Shown: positions 1,412 through 48,612 of the stretch, one piece after another
How positions within the stretch are numbered: the stretch's first letter is position 1
How the letters are laid out: each line of letters opens with the position of its first letter
Origin: a virus
Length of the DNA stretch: 48,637 nucleotides
IMG/VR virus record: IMGVR_UViG_3300028027_000080
Coordinates: 1-48,637 of that record
Direction: 5' to 3' (one strand)
Position numbers and translations under genes: made by a program
Notes under the pieces: generated by a model
What the model was told of the DNA's origin: nothing
Database searches by the model: none
The model's input: the letters and a program-made list of their open reading frames with translations, nothing else

Positions 1412-1942
1412 TTATGCGCCTGGCTTAGGAAGCGCGCGCCATGCTGCTTCAAATTTTGCGGCGTCTTTTGCCATCTCTGGAGAAAGTTCTATGTGCAACC
1501 ACTGCCCGCCGAAACTTCCAGCATTGTCATCCTTGGTAAAAATTTTTACCCCTTTTGAATTTTCTCCTCTTGAGCACCTGAAGCCTCTTCCGTACCCTTG
1601 AACCTTGTCCTTAACGTCTGTGTCAAATGCGTAGTCGTGGATTTCTTCAATGCCGAGTTCTAAAGTGTGTGCAAGGAACCAGTCCCACATCTCAACGCCG
1701 GTCTTGCGGTCCGGATACCCGAGGTCAACAGCAGCGCCAGTTGCATGAACCGACATCCATTTCTCCATACCTGGGTCACCCATCTTCTTGCCTTCAGTGT
1801 GAGAGTTTCTCATCAATCTGGCGACATAGATTCCCATATTCTTGGCTTTCCATCTCTTCGCACAAAGCTCAGCGAGTTTTTCAGTTCCAGGCTGTGCTTT
1901 TTTACCGTCAAAACTTGGGTAGTAGCTATATTTTCTGGGCAT
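1412..1942 (-). CDS. Endolysin, M15-type D-Ala-D-Ala / L-Ala-D-Glu peptidase
   Basis: A 176-residue peptidoglycan hydrolase. The zinc-binding signature of the peptidase M15 (VanY/DD-carboxypeptidase) superfamily is clear: SVHATGAAVD (His66, Asp73) and GQWLHIEL (His150). IHDY around residue 101 is typical of phage members. Such enzymes cut peptide cross-links in the cell wall and release progeny. No signal peptide and no separate wall-binding domain is present, so release through a holin is expected. A strong GGAGG ribosome binding site precedes the ATG. Two small membrane-protein genes follow at 2005-2439, completing a lysis cassette. A second M15-like domain is found in the tape measure protein of this phage. 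Confidence 0.88.
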   Translation of the reverse strand: MPRKYSYYPSFDGKKAQPGTEKLAELCAKRWKAKNMGIYVARLMRNSHTEGKKMGDPGMEKWMSVHATGAAVDLGYPDRKTGVEMWDWFLAHTLELGIEEIHDYAFDTDVKDKVQGYGRGFRCSRGENSKGVKIFTKDDNAGSFGGQWLHIELSPEMAKDAAKFEAAWRALPKPGA

Positions 1943-2004: not shown

Positions 2005-2253
2005 TTATTTGGTAGACTTTCCAGGTTTTGGAGTACCACCAAAGGCTTGTGAAATTTCTTCCTTGTCAAGCACTCCGTCTTCGGCATACGCGGCCATAAG
2101 TGACTCAGTAACACGAGCTGCAGACATGACGCCAGCGATAGCGGCGCTCTTCCATAGCTCGACACCAAACACAGCTCCGCCGGCAATAGCTGCCAAAGCG
2201 CTAGAACCAAATACGGCTCCGATTCTTGTTAACAGTGAAATTATTGTTTCCAT
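2005..2253 (-). CDS. Candidate holin (membrane protein, 82 residues)
   Basis: Residues about 8-31 form one hydrophobic, Gly/Ala-rich membrane segment, followed by an amphipathic helix (WKSAAIAGVMSAARV) that may be a second, weaker one. The C-terminus is charged (DGVLDKEEIS) and ends in a basic tail. Size, topology and position immediately upstream of the endolysin fit a phage holin. It could also be a virion or antiholin-type membrane protein. The neighbouring 56-residue gene is a second candidate, so the two may form a holin/antiholin pair. Confidence 0.6.
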   Translation of the reverse strand: METIISLLTRIGAVFGSSALAAIAGGAVFGVELWKSAAIAGVMSAARVTESLMAAYAEDGVLDKEEISQAFGGTPKPGKSTK

Positions 2254-2268: not shown

Positions 2269-2439
2269 TTAATCTTCGCTACTACTAATAAGCAAACCAA
2301 AAAAATAGACAGCTAGCGCAACGGCTGATATCCATAATCCGTAAGTTCTTGTTTGGCCACTGAGGGTTATGAGAACCAATGCTGTTCCAGCAAGGGTCCA
2401 AGACAAATCGCTCAATCCGTCCTTAATTTTTCTGAACAT
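2269..2439 (-). CDS. Small two-helix membrane protein (56 residues), candidate holin or antiholin
   Basis: ATG at 2437-2439, stop TAA at 2269-2271, with an AGGAG ribosome binding site about 7 bases upstream. The product has two hydrophobic segments: SWTLAGTALVLITL (about residues 13-26) and YGLWISAVALAVYFFGLLI (about 33-51). A short turn (SGQTRT) separates them and the tail is acidic (SSSED). This class II holin-like hairpin sits 15 bases upstream of the other holin candidate. Its ATG overlaps the stop of the preceding 794-residue gene as TAATG, implying translational coupling. Confidence 0.65.
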   Translation of the reverse strand: MFRKIKDGLSDLSWTLAGTALVLITLSGQTRTYGLWISAVALAVYFFGLLISSSED

Positions 2440-4823
2440 TATTTTCTCCTTGTTACGGGTACTGGCGCGCTAAATATTGCAAGAGCACTTACGCCGATGA
2501 TTACTCTTCTTGTTTTAACTGGAACACTTGAGCCAATTGCTACGTAGCTATCTACTGGGCCCGAGAACACGTTGATTTCTACTTCAAACGATTCTTTAAC
2601 TTCAATAGGCGCGTCTTGAACCGCATTAACAAGCTGTTCTGCTTCTGCGGCAGTTACGTTTGTAATCTCAACGGCATCAAAGATTTCCGCAGCCTGGTCT
2701 CCATCAACGCTCTGCAAAACCTTTTCACTAGTAGCAAGGCTTACTGCTTGGTCTTCCGATACACCGCTCTCAATGACCGAGTCGACAGCAGCTGAAACTT
2801 GCTCTTCCGTAACAGTGTCTAATTCCAAAACATTGACCAGTTCTTCAAACTGTTCACTTGAGATAGGTTCATCCAAAACGGCCGAGATAATTGCATCAAA
2901 CTTCTCGTCAGTAATCGGCTCGTCAAATACCTGCTCAAGAGCGGCACTAAACTGCTCTGTTGTTAACGGTTCGTCAAATACGGCCTGAACTGCAGTATCA
3001 AACTGTTCGTCACTCAATGTAGAAGTATCTTCGAAGACTGCAGCTACGGCGTCCTCAAACTGCGCGTCCGAAAGTGGACCATCAAAGACCGCGGTCACTG
3101 CGTCCTCAAACTGTGCCTCAGACAATTTAGTTGGGTCTTCAAATACTGCGTTTACAGCAGCAGCAAAGTTTTCATTAGACATAGGTCCATCAAAAACTGA
3201 ATCAATGACGGTTGCAAACTGGGTATCTGTAAGTTCCTGGTCAAGAAGCGAGGAGACGACAGCAGTTAGTTCTTCTGGCGTTCCTGCGTCTGCCACTAAA
3301 TCACTAACAGCATTTGCAATTCCTGCATTAGACATGGGTCCGTCAAAAATATCCGCAACCGCAGCATCGGCTGCATCTTGAACTTCTTCTGGAACAACTA
3401 CCGGCGGTTCGTCCGTTTGTGTTGTTGTCTCTTGTTCTGGGGCATATTGTGGTACCGAGGTGGCGGGTCCATCACCTTCGGTGTTACCTTCGCTCGTGGG
3501 TGTCTCAACTGGGTTTACCTCCACTGGGTCAAATATTGTTTCAATAACAGTTGTAGTAGTAGGCGATACGGGTGTTTCGATTTCGGGTCCAGTAGTAGTT
3601 GTATTATCAATAGGTGAAACTGTTGTTGTGCTTGTGGTCGTTGTGGGCACTGTTGATGTACTTGTCGTACTGGTAGTAGTAGGAGTTTCTGTACCAAGAA
3701 GCTTTACAAAAAAACCACACCATCCTGAGTCGTAATCATTTGTATGCACGCCATTTACGTGTGTTCCTTTATACATTGAATAGTTGTCCACGGCGTAAGG
3801 CTCAATAACGGCAGTCTCTCCAACTTCAATCAGTCCTGCGTGAACAGCAACGGCACCAAACGCTGAATCGTCTGTATATGGTCCAGAACCCCACACTGTT
3901 CCGCCTGTAGTTCCGGTAACAGTAAATGCCCGATACGGCCCACATCCATTATTTCCTTGAGTTAAAGGCAGCGTGGTGGTAGTTGTAGTGCTACTAGTTG
4001 TAGTTGTTGGCGGAATAGGAGCCTGAACGTCTAAGTCTATATAGGCACATTCTGAGTCGGTGAGGCTTGAACCTTCACTGCCGTCCCAGGTAGATGCTTT
4101 GATACAAAAGCGAACAGGACCATAGCCTGTTGTAACCGGATTGTTACCCGTGAACATTGTGTAGTCCATGAGAAACGAAGTATTAGATGACGGAGTCCAA
4201 ACCCCCCAGCCGCCGCTTGTTGTTCCGCCAATTTCATCTAAGTCCCAAAAGTTAATTGAGTAAGAACCAATATTGGTATTACTTGAATTCGGCGCACCCC
4301 AGTCAAGCACGACGCCGTTAGCAGTGTTTGTAGCAGTGAGTAGTTGTGGGGCGTTTAAATAAGGAGCAAGAGTAGTTGTAGTAGTACTTGTGGTGCTCGT
4401 GCTCGTGGTGCTCGTGCTTGTAGTCGTTGTTACTGCGGGTTGGTTAATAGGGCCAATGCTTGGCTCAACTAGATAAGAGATTCCATTCCAGCGATTAGGG
4501 TCTCCGCAACATACGCCAGCACGAAGTCTGTATTGCTGCTGGGGAATCATTTCAAAACTGACATAAGAGTCAAGCCCGAAATAGTCATCGTTTGCAGTGA
4601 TTACGTTGTTTTGCTCGTCGTAGACCCATAACATTGAGTCAATCCCGTATTGTTGTTGGGCATACGTACGTATCGTCAGGGTGGCTGGCTCTTCAGAAGT
4701 GAAGTAAAAATCTCTGTTTCCTTCTGAGGCGGTATATGTGTCTGCCTTAGCCGGCGAGGTAAAGCAAAGTACAACTATTGGTAAAAACAGTATTATTCTT
4801 GGTATTTTTAGTAAGTTCTTCAA
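2439..4823 (-). CDS. Exported multidomain surface protein: PPC-like, FnIII, LCCL and repeats
   Basis: A 794-residue protein starting at TTG (4821-4823) with an AGAGG ribosome binding site; the early start is needed for the signal peptide (residues 1-27, cleavage expected after PAKA). Order: a PPC-like beta domain (30-122); Thr/Ser linker (131-152); fibronectin III-like domain (157-265); Thr linker (272-286); LCCL-type domain (about 293-376, starting CGPYRAFTVTG); Thr linker (380-425); acidic Pro-rich stretch (430-485); then eight or nine repeats of about 22 residues of the form FD.P(L/M)S..QF..AV.AV (490-670). Near the end are a hydrophobic stretch (773-785) and a TRRK tail. Thr-rich linkers and LCCL domains are common in exported proteins of aquatic Actinobacteria. 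It may decorate the virion or the infected cell, or serve in superinfection exclusion; none of this is proven. Confidence 0.75.
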   Translation of the reverse strand: MKNLLKIPRIILFLPIVVLCFTSPAKADTYTASEGNRDFYFTSEEPATLTIRTYAQQQYGIDSMLWVYDEQNNVITANDDYFGLDSYVSFEMIPQQQYRLRAGVCCGDPNRWNGISYLVEPSIGPINQPAVTTTTSTSTTSTSTTSTTTTTLAPYLNAPQLLTATNTANGVVLDWGAPNSSNTNIGSYSINFWDLDEIGGTTSGGWGVWTPSSNTSFLMDYTMFTGNNPVTTGYGPVRFCIKASTWDGSEGSSLTDSECAYIDLDVQAPIPPTTTTSSTTTTTTLPLTQGNNGCGPYRAFTVTGTTGGTVWGSGPYTDDSAFGAVAVHAGLIEVGETAVIEPYAVDNYSMYKGTHVNGVHTNDYDSGWCGFFVKLLGTETPTTTSTTSTSTVPTTTTSTTTVSPIDNTTTTGPEIETPVSPTTTTVIETIFDPVEVNPVETPTSEGNTEGDGPATSVPQYAPEQETTTQTDEPPVVVPEEVQDAADAAVADIFDGPMSNAGIANAVSDLVADAGTPEELTAVVSSLLDQELTDTQFATVIDSVFDGPMSNENFAAAVNAVFEDPTKLSEAQFEDAVTAVFDGPLSDAQFEDAVAAVFEDTSTLSDEQFDTAVQAVFDEPLTTEQFSAALEQVFDEPITDEKFDAIISAVLDEPISSEQFEELVNVLELDTVTEEQVSAAVDSVIESGVSEDQAVSLATSEKVLQSVDGDQAAEIFDAVEITNVTAAEAEQLVNAVQDAPIEVKESFEVEINVFSGPVDSYVAIGSSVPVKTRRVIIGVSALAIFSAPVPVTRRK

Positions 4824-4853: not shown

Positions 4854-5339
4854 TTAACTTAGCTTTTTACCAATTACCGTTCCGTCGAGATTCACAAGGC
4901 CCAGGTTTGAGTTTTTGTTAGAACTCAACGTTGCCCATGCTGGCCAGATATAGCCGGTTCCTTGTTGTGGTGCAAAAGTCTCTGTTATAGACCCAACTGA
5001 GACAGAAAATTCTTTTCCTTCATGGCCGGACAGCGGAACAAAAACGCGCATCTTTTTCTCAAGGTCATTTGGTCCCCAGAACATACTGTCAGCGTAAAAG
5101 CTGGTACTGCCGTGGATGTGGATATCCAGGTTGCTTAAAGCCGATACAGCAATCTTCATCCGGTTGTTGTTTTTTATGGCAGTGAACACGATTTCAAACC
5201 ATGAATCATCTATGCCTCGCTCTAAAGCATAAAGATGATAATTAGACGTTAAGGAATTGGGGTCAGGAAGGTTTGCAGAAAGACGACCGCACTCTTCCTG
5301 CGTAAATAATTTAAACGCATTGACAAGATGTACTGTCAT
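4854..5339 (-). CDS. Hypothetical protein, possible degenerate 2OG-oxygenase-like fold
   Basis: A 161-residue protein whose layout (helical N-terminus, then alternating beta segments ending in a GTGYIWPAWATLSS strand) resembles the double-stranded beta-helix proteins phages often carry beside fibre genes. The HxD...H iron-binding triad of active 2-oxoglutarate oxygenases is not present (His-containing segments are HIHGS and SGHEG). It would therefore be inactive if related at all. It lies between the exported LCCL protein and a small conserved virion-associated protein. Function unknown. Confidence 0.55.
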   Translation of the reverse strand: MTVHLVNAFKLFTQEECGRLSANLPDPNSLTSNYHLYALERGIDDSWFEIVFTAIKNNNRMKIAVSALSNLDIHIHGSTSFYADSMFWGPNDLEKKMRVFVPLSGHEGKEFSVSVGSITETFAPQQGTGYIWPAWATLSSNKNSNLGLVNLDGTVIGKKLS

Positions 5340-6915: not shown

Positions 6916-7977
6916 CTACTTTGACAGCTCGTAGAAGCCTTTGCCCCAAAGCCCCTGCAGGCGAGTGAAGTACTTCTCGTACCTAAGCCCAACCGCGTCT
7001 AGTCCATAGCGGTCTTTTGAGTACTTGCTAATCGCGGCCCTATCTAAGGTCTTAACCTGCTCAGTTGCGTCAGCGAACTCTTGCATGGTGTGACAGCGGA
7101 ATCCCGTCACTCCATCAATGACGGTTTCGGTAAAAGCGCCCCAGTCTGTGGAAATAATTGGGGACCCACAAGCCATCGCTTCGATAGCAACTGTCCCAAA
7201 AGGCTCCACGTAAATAGTCGGGGTAAAAGTGGCAATTGCGCCCCCCATGAGCTTGGCTCGCTCTTCTGTCCCCACAACGCCGACATACTCCCCATAATCG
7301 GGCGCAGAACCCTGTCCAGCGACCACCAGACGCTTTCCTAGGGCCTTACAGGTGTCAACTGCAATCTGATAGCCCTTACGCTCAATAAGGCGTCCTATGA
7401 AGAGATAGTAGTCATCCGGCTCTTCTTGTAGGGGAAAGTCCTTAATGTCGATGTAACTCGGTATTACCGTGTCATAGAACTTGCCGTCAAGTGCATGGGG
7501 GTCGGTCACCTTGGACCCGTAGCAGGAGTGCATCCACGCATAAGACTCAAATACTTTGTAGGGGGCAAATGAGCCACCATAGCCAATTCCGAACTCCACG
7601 CTCAACTCATCAGGGAAAGCATCAGCTATCGGCTTGGAGGCAAAACCGGCGATAAGGCAAATAAAGTCCTTGTGTTCTAGTCGCTCTTGAATTCCCCTAA
7701 TGACATTGATATTGAAGTTCACCCAATGTGGAAGGTTCCAGTCAAACGATGCAGCCGAGTAGTGATTTGGACCGACTGCCTCTAAACGCTGTTCTTCGGT
7801 AATACAGGTTATGTGCTCGTCGCAGGGGGCTTCGTTGAACTCGCCACCGTACAGAAACACGGTATGTCCGAGGTCCTTCATCATGATGCAGAACTTACGG
7901 ACTTTCTCCGTATAGGCACACGCCGTGAATTCTTCGGTCGTATTGGTGTGAGGCAGGGAAACTACATGAAATCTCAT
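6916..7977 (-). CDS. Glycosyltransferase, GT4 family
   Basis: 353 residues with the GT-B, GT4 layout. The nucleotide-sugar half contains FIGRLIERKG (193-202) and the EX7E motif VEPFGTVAIEAM (Glu258, Glu266), followed by ACGSPIISTDWGAFTE. The N-terminal acceptor half begins MRFHVVSLPHTNTT. The enzyme would transfer a sugar from an activated donor with retention of configuration. The acceptor is not evident. It stands alone between the glycine-rich fibre and a collagen-like fibre, so glycosylation of fibre Thr residues, virion proteins or host wall polymers are all possible. It has no membrane segment, and its sequence looks more G+C-rich than the fibre genes beside it, hinting at separate acquisition. 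Confidence 0.88.
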   Translation of the reverse strand: MRFHVVSLPHTNTTEEFTACAYTEKVRKFCIMMKDLGHTVFLYGGEFNEAPCDEHITCITEEQRLEAVGPNHYSAASFDWNLPHWVNFNINVIRGIQERLEHKDFICLIAGFASKPIADAFPDELSVEFGIGYGGSFAPYKVFESYAWMHSCYGSKVTDPHALDGKFYDTVIPSYIDIKDFPLQEEPDDYYLFIGRLIERKGYQIAVDTCKALGKRLVVAGQGSAPDYGEYVGVVGTEERAKLMGGAIATFTPTIYVEPFGTVAIEAMACGSPIISTDWGAFTETVIDGVTGFRCHTMQEFADATEQVKTLDRAAISKYSKDRYGLDAVGLRYEKYFTRLQGLWGKGFYELSK

Positions 7978-15972: not shown

Positions 15973-17505
15973 TTAATTCCATTCGCTATCAATTGTTCTT
16001 ATTTCGCGCAACGCTGTTGCATGGTCGACCATCTCATGGTTGTGGCGATTATGCCGCATTTCATCCATCTTCGTAAATAGTTCTTCTCGAATCCCAAGCC
16101 TATTTATTGCAGTTGTGCACGAATCTTTGTTTAACAAACCCTGCCCTTGAGCAACGTGAGCCATATGTGGAGCTAAAAACATTTCACCAGACGAATTGTC
16201 AAAATCATACCTAGACGGAGGACGCTCAGCCCATAGGTCAATAATCATCTGCAGTTCTTCATTGATTGGCATGTGGGACATTTCTTGCCAGAATTTTGAA
16301 TCTTGTCTATCTGAATAATAATGCAACCTAATCATAGAAAGAATATTACGCATCATTTTTTCAAAGCCTTGATTGTAATGTTTTTGAGACGCAACATTAG
16401 ATGGCACATACGAAGCAAGATATGGAATCAAATATTTAATCTGCTGAATGGTTGAACCAATACTGCTGGCTTCCAGGGGCTCAACAAAAGAAGATGACAA
16501 ACCTATTGCGCAGCAGTTTTTAACCCAGCAATTTTTTAAATATCCGGCATCAAAGTTAATTACGCGAGTATTTTCTACCTTATACCCTGTCATCTGCTCT
16601 AGTTCATGAACGGCCTCATCGGTAGATATGAATTGAGATGAAAAAACATAGCCATTACCGCGGCGCTCCTGGGTGGGTATTTCCCACACCCATCCAGCGC
16701 TTGCGGCACGCGCGCGCGTATAGGCTTTTATTTTTCCACTAGGGTCACTTTCGGTTGGGAAAGGTATTGCCGTATCGCAAAGAAGATTGTCACTAAACGA
16801 ACACCACTCGTCGGCTCCTAGTTCTTTCATTAATACCCTATTGAAACCGCTAGCGTCAAACCAAAAGTCAGCAACCACGTTTTCGTTGAACTCGGTTGTG
16901 ACGGAGTTTATTGTTCCATTTTCTGAGTTAACAAGAACACTTTTTACTGATGCGTCAACAAATTTAATACCACGCTTAAAAGCAAGAGAAGTAAAATATT
17001 CGTTAAGTTTATTTGTGTCAAAATGAAACTGGTTTGTTGCTTTATGAAGAGATTGGCGACTAATTTTGTCTTTTATTAAACCAATACTTGATGTTTGTGT
17101 AGTAAAAAGTTTGTCTTGCTCAACAAAACCCATATAACTAGCAAATAAACCATGAGCATAAATATCATCTATTTCGCCAACGCTATGAAAATAGTCTTTC
17201 GTATGAGTTGACCAATTTTCAAATCTAATGCCGTACTTGTGTGTTGCGGCGGTTGCTTCAATCATCGCTTCTCTAGGAATATCGCACGTGTCCATAAACT
17301 GAGCCCAATGCTCCGTGCTTCCTTCGCCAACTCCAATAATTCCTATTTTTGATGACGACACAACCGTAATCGGTGACAAAGGAAAAGCTTTGCGCATGTA
17401 TAACGCTGTTATTAGGCCGGCAGTTCCTGAACCAACTATCCCAAACGACATAGGGGTTGTCCCTGATGCTGTCCTAAAATCAACTAATTCTTTATCTGTG
17501 AGCAT
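15973..17505 (-). CDS. Flavin-dependent tryptophan halogenase
   Basis: 510 residues, the normal length for the PrnA/RebH class. The FAD-binding GxGxxG is GIVGSGTAG (22-30). The catalytic lysine (PrnA Lys79) is Lys90 in THKYGIRFENW. The halogenase signature WxWxIP is WVWEIP (272-277), and the second catalytic acid lies in SSFVEPLEAS (Glu345, PrnA Glu346). These enzymes use FADH2, O2 and Cl-/Br- to make a bound hypohalous species that halogenates the indole ring of tryptophan. No flavin reductase is encoded in the window, so the host would supply FADH2. Substrate may be free Trp or a protein-bound one. It is followed by DUF6065-like and unknown genes and preceded by a 2OG-Fe(II) enzyme, a tight five-gene cassette between two fibre blocks. 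Confidence 0.88.
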   Translation of the reverse strand: MLTDKELVDFRTASGTTPMSFGIVGSGTAGLITALYMRKAFPLSPITVVSSSKIGIIGVGEGSTEHWAQFMDTCDIPREAMIEATAATHKYGIRFENWSTHTKDYFHSVGEIDDIYAHGLFASYMGFVEQDKLFTTQTSSIGLIKDKISRQSLHKATNQFHFDTNKLNEYFTSLAFKRGIKFVDASVKSVLVNSENGTINSVTTEFNENVVADFWFDASGFNRVLMKELGADEWCSFSDNLLCDTAIPFPTESDPSGKIKAYTRARAASAGWVWEIPTQERRGNGYVFSSQFISTDEAVHELEQMTGYKVENTRVINFDAGYLKNCWVKNCCAIGLSSSFVEPLEASSIGSTIQQIKYLIPYLASYVPSNVASQKHYNQGFEKMMRNILSMIRLHYYSDRQDSKFWQEMSHMPINEELQMIIDLWAERPPSRYDFDNSSGEMFLAPHMAHVAQGQGLLNKDSCTTAINRLGIREELFTKMDEMRHNRHNHEMVDHATALREIRTIDSEWN

Positions 17506-46940: not shown

Positions 46941-47489
46941 TCACCTATCGGCGTTTGGTGGCCCCTCTAGCTCTACTATTTCCTCTGCTGAGCCTTGTGG
47001 AGCCTCTATGGGAACCCAGGCTTTTGAGTAGTTGTACTCGGTTATTTTACGCTGCTTAATCACGGAGCTGTCCATCATTAGGGTTAGTTCGGCGTAGCTC
47101 ATGTTAAAGATGTCTTTAATCTCGTCCATGCTGTACTTGCCAGAGTGGTAAACATCCTTGACAATAGCCGACATATATTTGGCCACAATCTGCCCTCGGC
47201 CCCTATTTAGACATATATGCATGACCATGGCATCTATGGCGTCAACGTCTTTGAAGATTACCGGCACGGTCTTTTTGTCTCGTTTAAGAACGCGCTTGTC
47301 TGACTGAGCACATATCCACCGGTGAAAACCGTCAATAATAAATCCGGTTGACTTCTGGACAATGATTGGAGAAACCCATCCATAGTCGTGCAGGGAGTCG
47401 GCCAAGACTTGTAGGTCTGGCTTCAGTACATGAGTTGCTCGCCATGGGGCCGGCTGTATCTGGTCCCATTTAACTTTTTCAATTTCCAT
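46941..47489 (-). CDS. ParB-like nuclease-domain protein (IbrB-type)
   Basis: 182 residues. The ParB/sulfiredoxin-like core covers 1-95: WDQIQPAPWRA, LADSLHDYGWVSPIIVQ and IIDGFHRW (51-58), where GxHR binds nucleotide or carries out the NTPase/nuclease function of the fold. Residues about 105-145 are helix-turn-helix-like (SMDEIKDIFNMSYAELTLMM). It overlaps the PAPS-reductase-like gene by 11 bases, giving the IbrA-IbrB order seen in phages and mobile elements. The role of such pairs is not settled. Confidence 0.75.
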   Translation of the reverse strand: MEIEKVKWDQIQPAPWRATHVLKPDLQVLADSLHDYGWVSPIIVQKSTGFIIDGFHRWICAQSDKRVLKRDKKTVPVIFKDVDAIDAMVMHICLNRGRGQIVAKYMSAIVKDVYHSGKYSMDEIKDIFNMSYAELTLMMDSSVIKQRKITEYNYSKAWVPIEAPQGSAEEIVELEGPPNADR

Positions 47490-48612
47490 TTTCTTCTGCC
47501 TGAATTGCTTTCTGGAGTGAGTAGGCCTTTGTTCCTGGACCTATTGGGTTTACCGCTGTTATGTTTATTTCGTTAAGCAAAACATTTCGTATAAGCCAGT
47601 GAAGCGGATACGAGTTTGGGTCTTTTGCATGTTTCTTCCTAAATTCAGAAGCGTACGCCATGGCTCGTTTTTTTAACCCAGGCGTCAGAACGTTGTCTTC
47701 AATACATTCCTTGACTCCCTCCCATCCGTTTTTTGCGTAGCGCATAATCACGGCTTCAATATCAAATTCTGGCCACCATCGACGCTGAGCATCAATCTGT
47801 GGAAAACATGCAACTAGGCGGTCATAGAAGTCCGGCTCAGTAGCAACAACGTCACCAATCCTCCTAATCGCAACGGCGTGCAGTGGAATACCAACGCGAG
47901 AGTTACTACCAGTCAGGGCGGCATAGTCGTAGTAATCACAGTAAGAAGCGTCGTGTTCTTCGGTAATAAACTTGAATACATCGTCAGTAGTCCAGTCATA
48001 AATCACTTTTGCAAACCTAAGCGGTATATTTTTTCGCATCTTGTAAGGTATGACGATGTAGTTCTCATGCAGTTTCTGTACACATGAGCGGTAGCGAATC
48101 ATTGACTCGTTTGCCCTCACGCCAGTAATGAAAGCAACCTTACCTTTTTTACCCTGCATAGTGTAATAGTCAATGGACTCAGGTATTTTCTTGTCTGGGT
48201 CTAAACCAAAATGTTCAGCCCTTATGGCCCAGTCAGGTATAGGGCGAATTAGTCGTCCTTGTTTTTGTCGCATCCCTGACCACAAAAGACAATATTCACG
48301 ACGTCCAAGAACCCATATCTCTTGGCTCTGCGGCAGGCAGTACCATTCCATATCAACCCAGTCGTAATTGCGAACCTGCTCCACAAAGCGCACAACAGAC
48401 GGACTAACCATCTCTTCGTCACGGAAAATTACTTTTACCGGGCCAAGACCGCGCTCTTCATGTATTTCTTTTGCCAGGTACAGCGCTGCCGTGCTGTCCT
48501 TACCTCCAGAGAACTGAACACACACGGTGTCAAACGTGTCATAAACATGACGCATGCGTTCGCGTGCTGCATCAACGCAGGAGATATCTAAATAGAGTTT
48601 TTGCCTGCTCAC
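47479..48612 (-). CDS. PAPS reductase-like PP-loop protein (IbrA-type)
   Basis: 377 residues, start GTG at 48610-48612. The PP-loop ATP-binding motif is FSGGKDSTAALYLAK (SGGKDS at 35-40). KVIFRDEEMVSPSVVRFVEQ, ITGVRANESMIRY (about residues 165-180: the family's 'GvR..ES..R') and the Trp-rich WTTDDVFKFI follow. This is the phosphoadenosine phosphosulfate reductase / N-type ATP pyrophosphatase fold. It pairs with the ParB-like gene. Family members include IbrA, regulators and proteins of DNA-modification systems (DndC), so DNA or RNA modification or host gene regulation are possible. Right edge: 25 bases upstream only, so the promoter may be outside. Confidence 0.8.
   Translation of the reverse strand: MSRQKLYLDISCVDAARERMRHVYDTFDTVCVQFSGGKDSTAALYLAKEIHEERGLGPVKVIFRDEEMVSPSVVRFVEQVRNYDWVDMEWYCLPQSQEIWVLGRREYCLLWSGMRQKQGRLIRPIPDWAIRAEHFGLDPDKKIPESIDYYTMQGKKGKVAFITGVRANESMIRYRSCVQKLHENYIVIPYKMRKNIPLRFAKVIYDWTTDDVFKFITEEHDASYCDYYDYAALTGSNSRVGIPLHAVAIRRIGDVVATEPDFYDRLVACFPQIDAQRRWWPEFDIEAVIMRYAKNGWEGVKECIEDNVLTPGLKKRAMAYASEFRKKHAKDPNSYPLHWLIRNVLLNEINITAVNPIGPGTKAYSLQKAIQAEENGN

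Follow-up and report, generated by a model that had tools for sequence, protein, structure and literature searches.

A putative two-part surface-display module in a virus of probable actinobacterial host, with relatives in Acidimicrobiales genomes

A surface protein gene in a 48,637-base IMG/VR virus record (the window, meaning the whole stretch of DNA that was analysed; no end repeats were noted) and the small two-transmembrane (two-TM) gene that follows it do not look like a holin cassette; they look like a surface-display module that Acidimicrobiales share with phages that probably infect them. The preferred reading, to which a probability of roughly 0.5 may be attached, is that the two proteins form a display module that is made late in infection and whose domains mask sites on the cell surface.

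The surface gene and its domains

The features concerned all lie on the minus strand of the window, and are given below with the evidence for each in brackets.

4854..5339, minus strand: gene upstream in the same orientation, separated from the surface gene by 30 bases (open reading frame list).
2439..4823, minus strand: surface protein gene, 794 amino acids, TTG start (open reading frame and translation).
4740..4823, minus strand: predicted signal peptide, residues 1-28, AKA/D site (sequence, hydropathy, family N-termini).
4458..4736, minus strand: beta domain, residues about 30-122, earlier labelled PPC-like (model; related stretch in 15 family loci).
4368..4436, minus strand: Thr/Ser linker 1, residues 130-152 (sequence).
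4014..4367, minus strand: FnIII domain, residues about 153-270 (structure-model match, Z 13.2).
3957..4013, minus strand: Thr/Ser linker 2, residues about 271-289 (sequence and model).
3726..3902, minus strand: LCCL domain, Pfam stretch at residues 308-366 of a whole domain at about 300-380 (Pfam).
3414..3683, minus strand: disordered Thr/Pro/Glu stalk, residues about 381-470 (sequence and model).
2577..3389, minus strand: alpha-solenoid and conserved C-domain, residues about 479-749 (family alignment and model).
2829..3248, minus strand: eight 17/19-residue repeats, residue 526 to about 665 (repeat spacing).
2442..2510, minus strand: C-terminal RR-hydrophobic stretch and basic tail TRRK, residues 772-794 (sequence, hydropathy).
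2269..2439, minus strand: 56-amino-acid two-TM partner, whose ATG overlaps the stop codon of the surface gene by one base (open reading frame list, locus comparison, hydropathy).
2005..2253, minus strand: 82-amino-acid hydrophobic open reading frame, probably the better holin candidate (open reading frame list, hydropathy; phrog_26427).
1412..1942, minus strand: 176-amino-acid putative endolysin with an M15-like motif (open reading frame list; no family match).

An earlier note on this DNA had described a 794-residue product at 2439-4823 as an exported, modular surface protein. Exactly these positions contain a minus-strand open reading frame of 794 codons, which starts at TTG, and the description is supported by the predicted signal peptide, the domains and the C-terminal hydrophobic stretch. 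The signal peptide with its AKA/D site follows a simple rule (charged n-region, hydrophobic core and A-X-A-type site) that all 31 of the 31 distinct family N-termini pass, seven loci with an open 5′ end having been omitted. The Thr/Ser linkers are plain in the sequence, as are the hydrophobic C-terminus and the basic tail (TRRK). The LCCL domain is matched by PF03815 in the window protein with an E-value of 1.5e-6 and 28.7 bits against a cut-off of 22.6, and the best Pfam E-value among the 19 family members of set A5 is 7.3e-13. For the FnIII domain, the AlphaFold model resembles FnIII structures over residues 154-268, with Z 13.2 and an rmsd of 2.0 Å over 96 residues; Pfam fn3 has no match in the window surface protein itself and is matched by 8 of the 19 members of A5. 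The region that had been called PPC-like has no Pfam match to PPC in the window protein; it is modelled as an eight-stranded beta domain at about residues 30-121, and the fold matches listed for the model are taken up by FnIII.

The repeats, which had been put at about 22 residues, are in fact eight units of 17 or 19 residues, with spacings of 17, 17, 19, 17, 19, 17 and 17, and the structure models fold them as an alpha-solenoid. The full-length model of the window protein has a mean pLDDT of 70 and a pTM of 0.42, so that the relative placement of its domains is not interpretable, and residues 749-794 have pLDDT below 50. The model of a relative in which the two proteins are fused contains the solenoid and, starting at once behind the RR motif, a 21-residue helix, which a disordered linker separates from two more membrane-type helices. 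The alpha-solenoid matches designed and HEAT-like repeats (Z 11.2 at best), but no more closely than helical repeats commonly do; these matches were set aside, as were calmodulin matches in the PDB with E-values of 0.4-0.9. The repeats have a weak similarity to GatB/YqeY (15 of the 19 members at E-values up to 1, the best being 5.3e-7), which may be due to convergence. No model of known function in Pfam, NCBIfam or PHROGs covers the C-domain or the two-TM protein.

The two-TM partner

The 56-amino-acid product has two hydrophobic stretches and belongs to phrog_29041, in which no function is assigned. The viral collection yielded 59 loci with the surface gene, encoding 43 distinct proteins, several of the loci being from near-identical contigs. 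All 55 uncut loci of this first search (the 59 less four that are cut at a contig end) have the partner. It is fused to the surface protein in 14, the two-TM domain then being the C-terminus of the surface protein itself, and is encoded separately and directly downstream in 41, with a stop/start overlap in 27, a spacing of 2-12 nt in eight and of 47 nt in six. A further 20 of 20 processed loci carry it too, nine fused and 11 separate; these represent 16 contigs (L102, L105, L112 and L113 repeat the contigs of L097, L100, L095 and L096), include L062 from the genome collection and omit L098 as well as L115, which is on the contig of L099. The two-TM profile was built from family members and therefore detects some of them by construction; adjacency and frame are independent of it. 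The metagenome-assembled phage DSL-LC01 also has the fused form.

Two holin-type genes and an endolysin had been proposed downstream of the surface gene. The order of the 56-, 82- and 176-amino-acid products stands, but the first of the three genes is better explained as the obligate partner of the surface protein than simply as a holin, because it is fused or adjacent to the surface gene in every uncut relative, including cell copies that are away from lysis genes. A small two-TM open reading frame that adjoins an endolysin need not be a holin.

Variation among viral relatives

The C-terminal half of the surface protein is conserved across the family, with repeats gained or lost as whole units, and the N-terminal halves differ. 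Stretches like the first beta domain of the window occur in 15 loci, a propeller-like module typified by L004 in 17, a beta-helix ectodomain in L047 and L036, and, within the 59-locus comparison, a PA14-type module (Pfam PA14) in L022 alone, while the LCCL region of the window matches four loci on viral contigs. Among loci found later, PA14 is present in L099, a SUEL lectin domain with LCCL in L097, and LCCL in L095. An LCCL module is also found inside a long repeat-rich protein of another virus contig (L098:3-2039), in which neither the C-domain nor the partner was seen. One virus contig of 267,766 bases has two copies of the surface gene (L028 and L029), one of them at its very end, which may reflect a chimera or end redundancy.

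Most of a stretch of about 10 kb can be aligned between the window and a near relative (L048), with a DNA identity of 73-80%. Two central segments of the surface gene, 4403-3512 and 3429-2930, do not align, apart from a short piece between them, and there are further gaps at glycine-rich and collagen-like fibre genes. Because the first gap starts beside the first Thr linker, the alignment suggests that ectodomains may be exchanged via the repetitive DNA of that linker. The window ectodomains have no match at an E-value of 1e-4 among the other genes of the window.

Several other genes of the window may be mentioned. A glycosyltransferase-like open reading frame (6916-7977, minus strand) is 65-96% identical in relatives, and is found near the surface gene in loci that differ in their ectodomains and in the position of the endolysin. 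A tryptophan halogenase (15973-17505, minus strand; phrog_2928, E 3.6e-105) lies among the tail genes, and a PAPS reductase domain (PF01507, E 9.3e-10) is encoded at 47479-48612 on the minus strand. A divergent open reading frame at 263-784 on the plus strand resembles a DNA-binding regulator, and has a look-alike, judged by eye, in L062 (4087-4521).

Homologues in Acidimicrobiales and the probable host

A single scan of genome contigs, for which the C-terminal alignment rather than the LCCL or FnIII domain was the query, gave two matches: L062, a phage-like contig in a Gammaproteobacteria MAG, and L063, a chromosomal contig of an Acidimicrobiaceae MAG (genome G001). Four of 397 genomes sampled from the order of the latter MAG match, and 3 of 396 from the phylum, two of which were already in the order set and one of which is weak (G703, E 2e-4); the stretch listed for G703 (L094) contains no recognisable surface gene, and this genome is not counted as a relative.

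Within the genus of G256, 3 of 21 genomes match: in two, the gene is complete and is flanked by groEL and by a NUDIX-like gene, after which comes a guaB-like gene, and the third has a fragment at a contig end with the same gene order. Within the genus of G001, 4 of 13 genomes match, all between P450-like and MFS-like genes, and in a fifth (G794) the gene begins in the same place and is cut off by the end of the contig. All five genomes with a P450 that is at least 91% identical carry the surface gene beside it, and no surface gene was found in the flank examined in four genomes with a P450 at 77-78% (about 0.9 kb in G791). These neighbours are named from a reading of their open reading frames and not from database annotation; no lysis genes were seen among them. 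The cell homologues are fused to the two-TM domain in G256, G344, G001, G788, G790 and G797, and G112 has the unfused form as two adjacent open reading frames. The G001 copy is split into two open reading frames near a T run (L063:3656-5100 / L078:9811-11255), which may indicate a pseudogene or an assembly error.

The ectodomains of the cell copies consist of RCC1, DUF285, DUF4082 or Ser/Thr/Pro repeats. The link to host surface proteins that the earlier note suggested is supported for the C-terminal module, which has homologues in cells; no donor of the LCCL, FnIII and first beta domains was found, the genome scan having used the C-terminal alignment. In a tree of the C-domain and two-TM domain (46 rows), cell sequences fall in two places, each with viral sequences, and holding them together is rejected with a p-AU of 0.006, subject to the caveat of long branches. 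At least two exchanges between cells and viruses, in either direction, would therefore have occurred.

An actinobacterial host had been proposed for the virus, and agrees with two observations. Of 25 records searched for the actinobacterial marker WhiB, made up of one phage record and 24 virus records with the window among them, 19 encode it, though the window does not; and verified cell homologues of the module were found only in the order of the Acidimicrobiaceae MAG. The host of DSL-LC01 is predicted by its authors to belong to Actinomycetia, as stated in a passage of PMC10611076. The best inference is that the virus belongs to freshwater actinobacteria, with a host in or near Acidimicrobiales, and the surface/two-TM pair could serve as a marker for assigning environmental phages to this order. 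A second exported protein, with GGGPIVLDGMDPVCHSG near its start, is encoded near the pair in two relatives (L095:6898-8181, L097:7888-9303); in L095 it ends in an LPXTG anchor, which suggests a sortase in the host.

Proposed role

The gene structure, the domains, the obligate partner, the fusions, the turnover in the middle of the gene and the chromosomal relatives are results of computation. We infer export, topology, late timing, glycan binding and a role in exclusion, which may be connected as follows. The surface protein would be exported by the secretion pathway of the host and its signal peptide cleaved, and the C-terminal hydrophobic helix would anchor it in the cytoplasmic membrane with the basic tail inside. 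The two-TM protein, co-translated or fused, would complete the anchor in the same membrane. The alpha-solenoid and the Thr-rich stalk would hold the exchangeable binding domains (beta, FnIII and LCCL) outward, where they may mask, or compete for, the surface sites on which the same phage and its rivals depend, so that infected cells and debris would no longer adsorb virions.

Anchored surface display of the window protein is regarded as likely. The envelope location of this phage-encoded protein is predicted from its signal peptide and TM stretches only; the C-terminal helix of TM length and the two-TM domain in the model of the fused relative count in favour of display. The models are consistent with a topology in which the ectodomain is outside, the basic tail or linker inside and the two-TM hairpin in the membrane, but a helix that runs from outside to inside is not usually preceded by RR, as the C-terminal helix is, and this counts against it. 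Late expression is suggested by the position of the gene in the run from tail to lysis genes, 30 nt after the gene before it. Many superinfection-exclusion proteins are made early, according to PMC9586334, and this counts against an exclusion role for a gene whose position suggests late expression.

A role in superinfection exclusion or receptor occlusion is put somewhat short of even odds. Of the possible uses of display, receptor occlusion would be the likeliest, because lectin-like domains are among the modules and the middle of the gene turns over as tail-fibre genes do; against this, FnIII and LCCL domains need not bind glycans. Among the three predicted roles in the earlier note, a change of the host surface fits best, and virion anchoring and assistance with lysis fit worse.

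The same anchored display might instead bring another benefit, such as adhesion of infected cells or their debris to other cells, particles or surfaces, or altered uptake of them by grazers, as the chromosomal relatives may bring about for uninfected cells. Phage and cell have the same anchor, the chromosomal copies have adhesin-like RCC1 and DUF285 ectodomains, and it is possible that the module has a general adhesion role, as Acidimicrobiales carry it themselves. Such a benefit would be less obvious for a cell that is soon to lyse, however, and the turnover in the middle of the phage gene fits conflict between phages or between phage and host better, so this alternative is considered unlikely.

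Still less probable is a function accessory to lysis, in which the 56-amino-acid protein would be a holin and the surface protein would link membrane and wall and aid or time lysis. The putative endolysin has no match in Pfam, PHROGs, NCBIfam or PDB sequences; its H..G.A.D / H.E motif is one that we take to resemble that of M15 peptidases. The two hydrophobic stretches of the 56-amino-acid protein would suit a holin, and 25 of the 59 viral loci have a relative of the window's endolysin candidate, the only type of endolysin looked for, no more than 1 kb downstream of the pair. However, it is placed further downstream in four loci and upstream in 11, and in 10 loci with long flanks none was found (the remaining nine gave no reading); the two-TM domain is part of an exported protein in the 14 fused loci of the 55; and the cell copies are beside groEL or P450 and MFS genes with no lysis genes. 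Searches of cell genomes with the endolysin candidate, made as a test of the host, gave 0 of 248 in the order and 1 of 396 in the phylum, the latter weak (E 4e-4), and carry no information on the host.

It is improbable that the protein joins the particle as a fibre-like or decoration component, for instance during passage through the membrane, for although its gene adjoins the tail-fibre genes and varies like them, and other phage proteins too have FnIII and LCCL modules, a signal peptide, a membrane anchor and an obligate membrane partner would be unexpected in a virion protein of a tailed phage.

If the display module does mask surface sites, it would offer a testable system for competition among freshwater phages at the cell surface. 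A broader proposal, which is doubtful at present, is that the alpha-solenoid/C-domain and the two-TM anchor constitute a new two-part display system common to Acidimicrobiales and their phages, and that its lectin-like domains, swapped at the Thr linkers, are the shield of a lineage against phages.

Comparison with known systems

Alteration of the host surface by phage-encoded proteins is known; the anchor with its obligate partner appears to be undescribed. No paper on the family was found by title and abstract start within the open-access literature, in which a search on the LCCL domain together with bacteriophage also gave nothing related; PMC6802176 mentions none of LCCL, fibronectin, holin and signal peptide. 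Deposited proteins of uncultured Caudovirales that resemble the family in a structure search are named by single domains or are uncharacterised. The C-terminal half of A0A6J5P167 (Fibronectin type III, BFVD) matches the window protein at 51% identity and that of A0A6J5Q6G8 (TerB_like, BFVD) at 34%; for both, the listing names single domains and gives neither function nor partner. A set of orphan phage open reading frames, of which some seem to be deposited under the names Fibronectin type III or Uncharacterized protein, is brought together here as a single family, for which the anchor is defined, the partner is obligate and relatives exist in cells.

To our knowledge, Llp of phage T5 has neither a modular ectodomain nor a two-TM partner. 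Like the pair in the window, for which this is a prediction, it is a phage-encoded envelope protein that alters the susceptibility of the infected cell, abolishing further infection by acting on the T5 receptor; unlike the window protein, it is a small periplasmic lipoprotein of a diderm host and is directed at one receptor (PMC9586334). CwpV of Clostridioides difficile is, like the window protein, a surface protein with variable repeat types, and gives protection against phage that resembles superinfection exclusion; unlike it, CwpV is host-encoded and phase-variable and acts after adsorption (PMC4737114). Both proteins show that a protein of the envelope can guard a cell against further infection, by mechanisms other than the one proposed here. 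Neither is a direct precedent for masking, because Llp acts from the periplasm and CwpV leaves adsorption unblocked.

Sortase-anchored LPXTG proteins share with the window protein (P0001) a signal peptide, a stalk, a hydrophobic C-terminus and a basic tail, but P0001 has no LPXTG motif in its sequence and no match to TIGR01167 at E-values up to 1, and in L095 the LPXTG protein is a separate one that comes after the pair. The homologues in Acidimicrobiales (P0003-P0005; L075-L078, L090-L092) differ from the window protein in having RCC1, DUF285, DUF4082 or Ser-Thr-Pro ectodomains and no lysis or tail genes nearby; they resemble it in their N-terminal signal or hydrophobic segment and low-complexity stalk, and they have the same C-domain, the same RR-hydrophobic stretch and the same two-TM domain, fused or next door.
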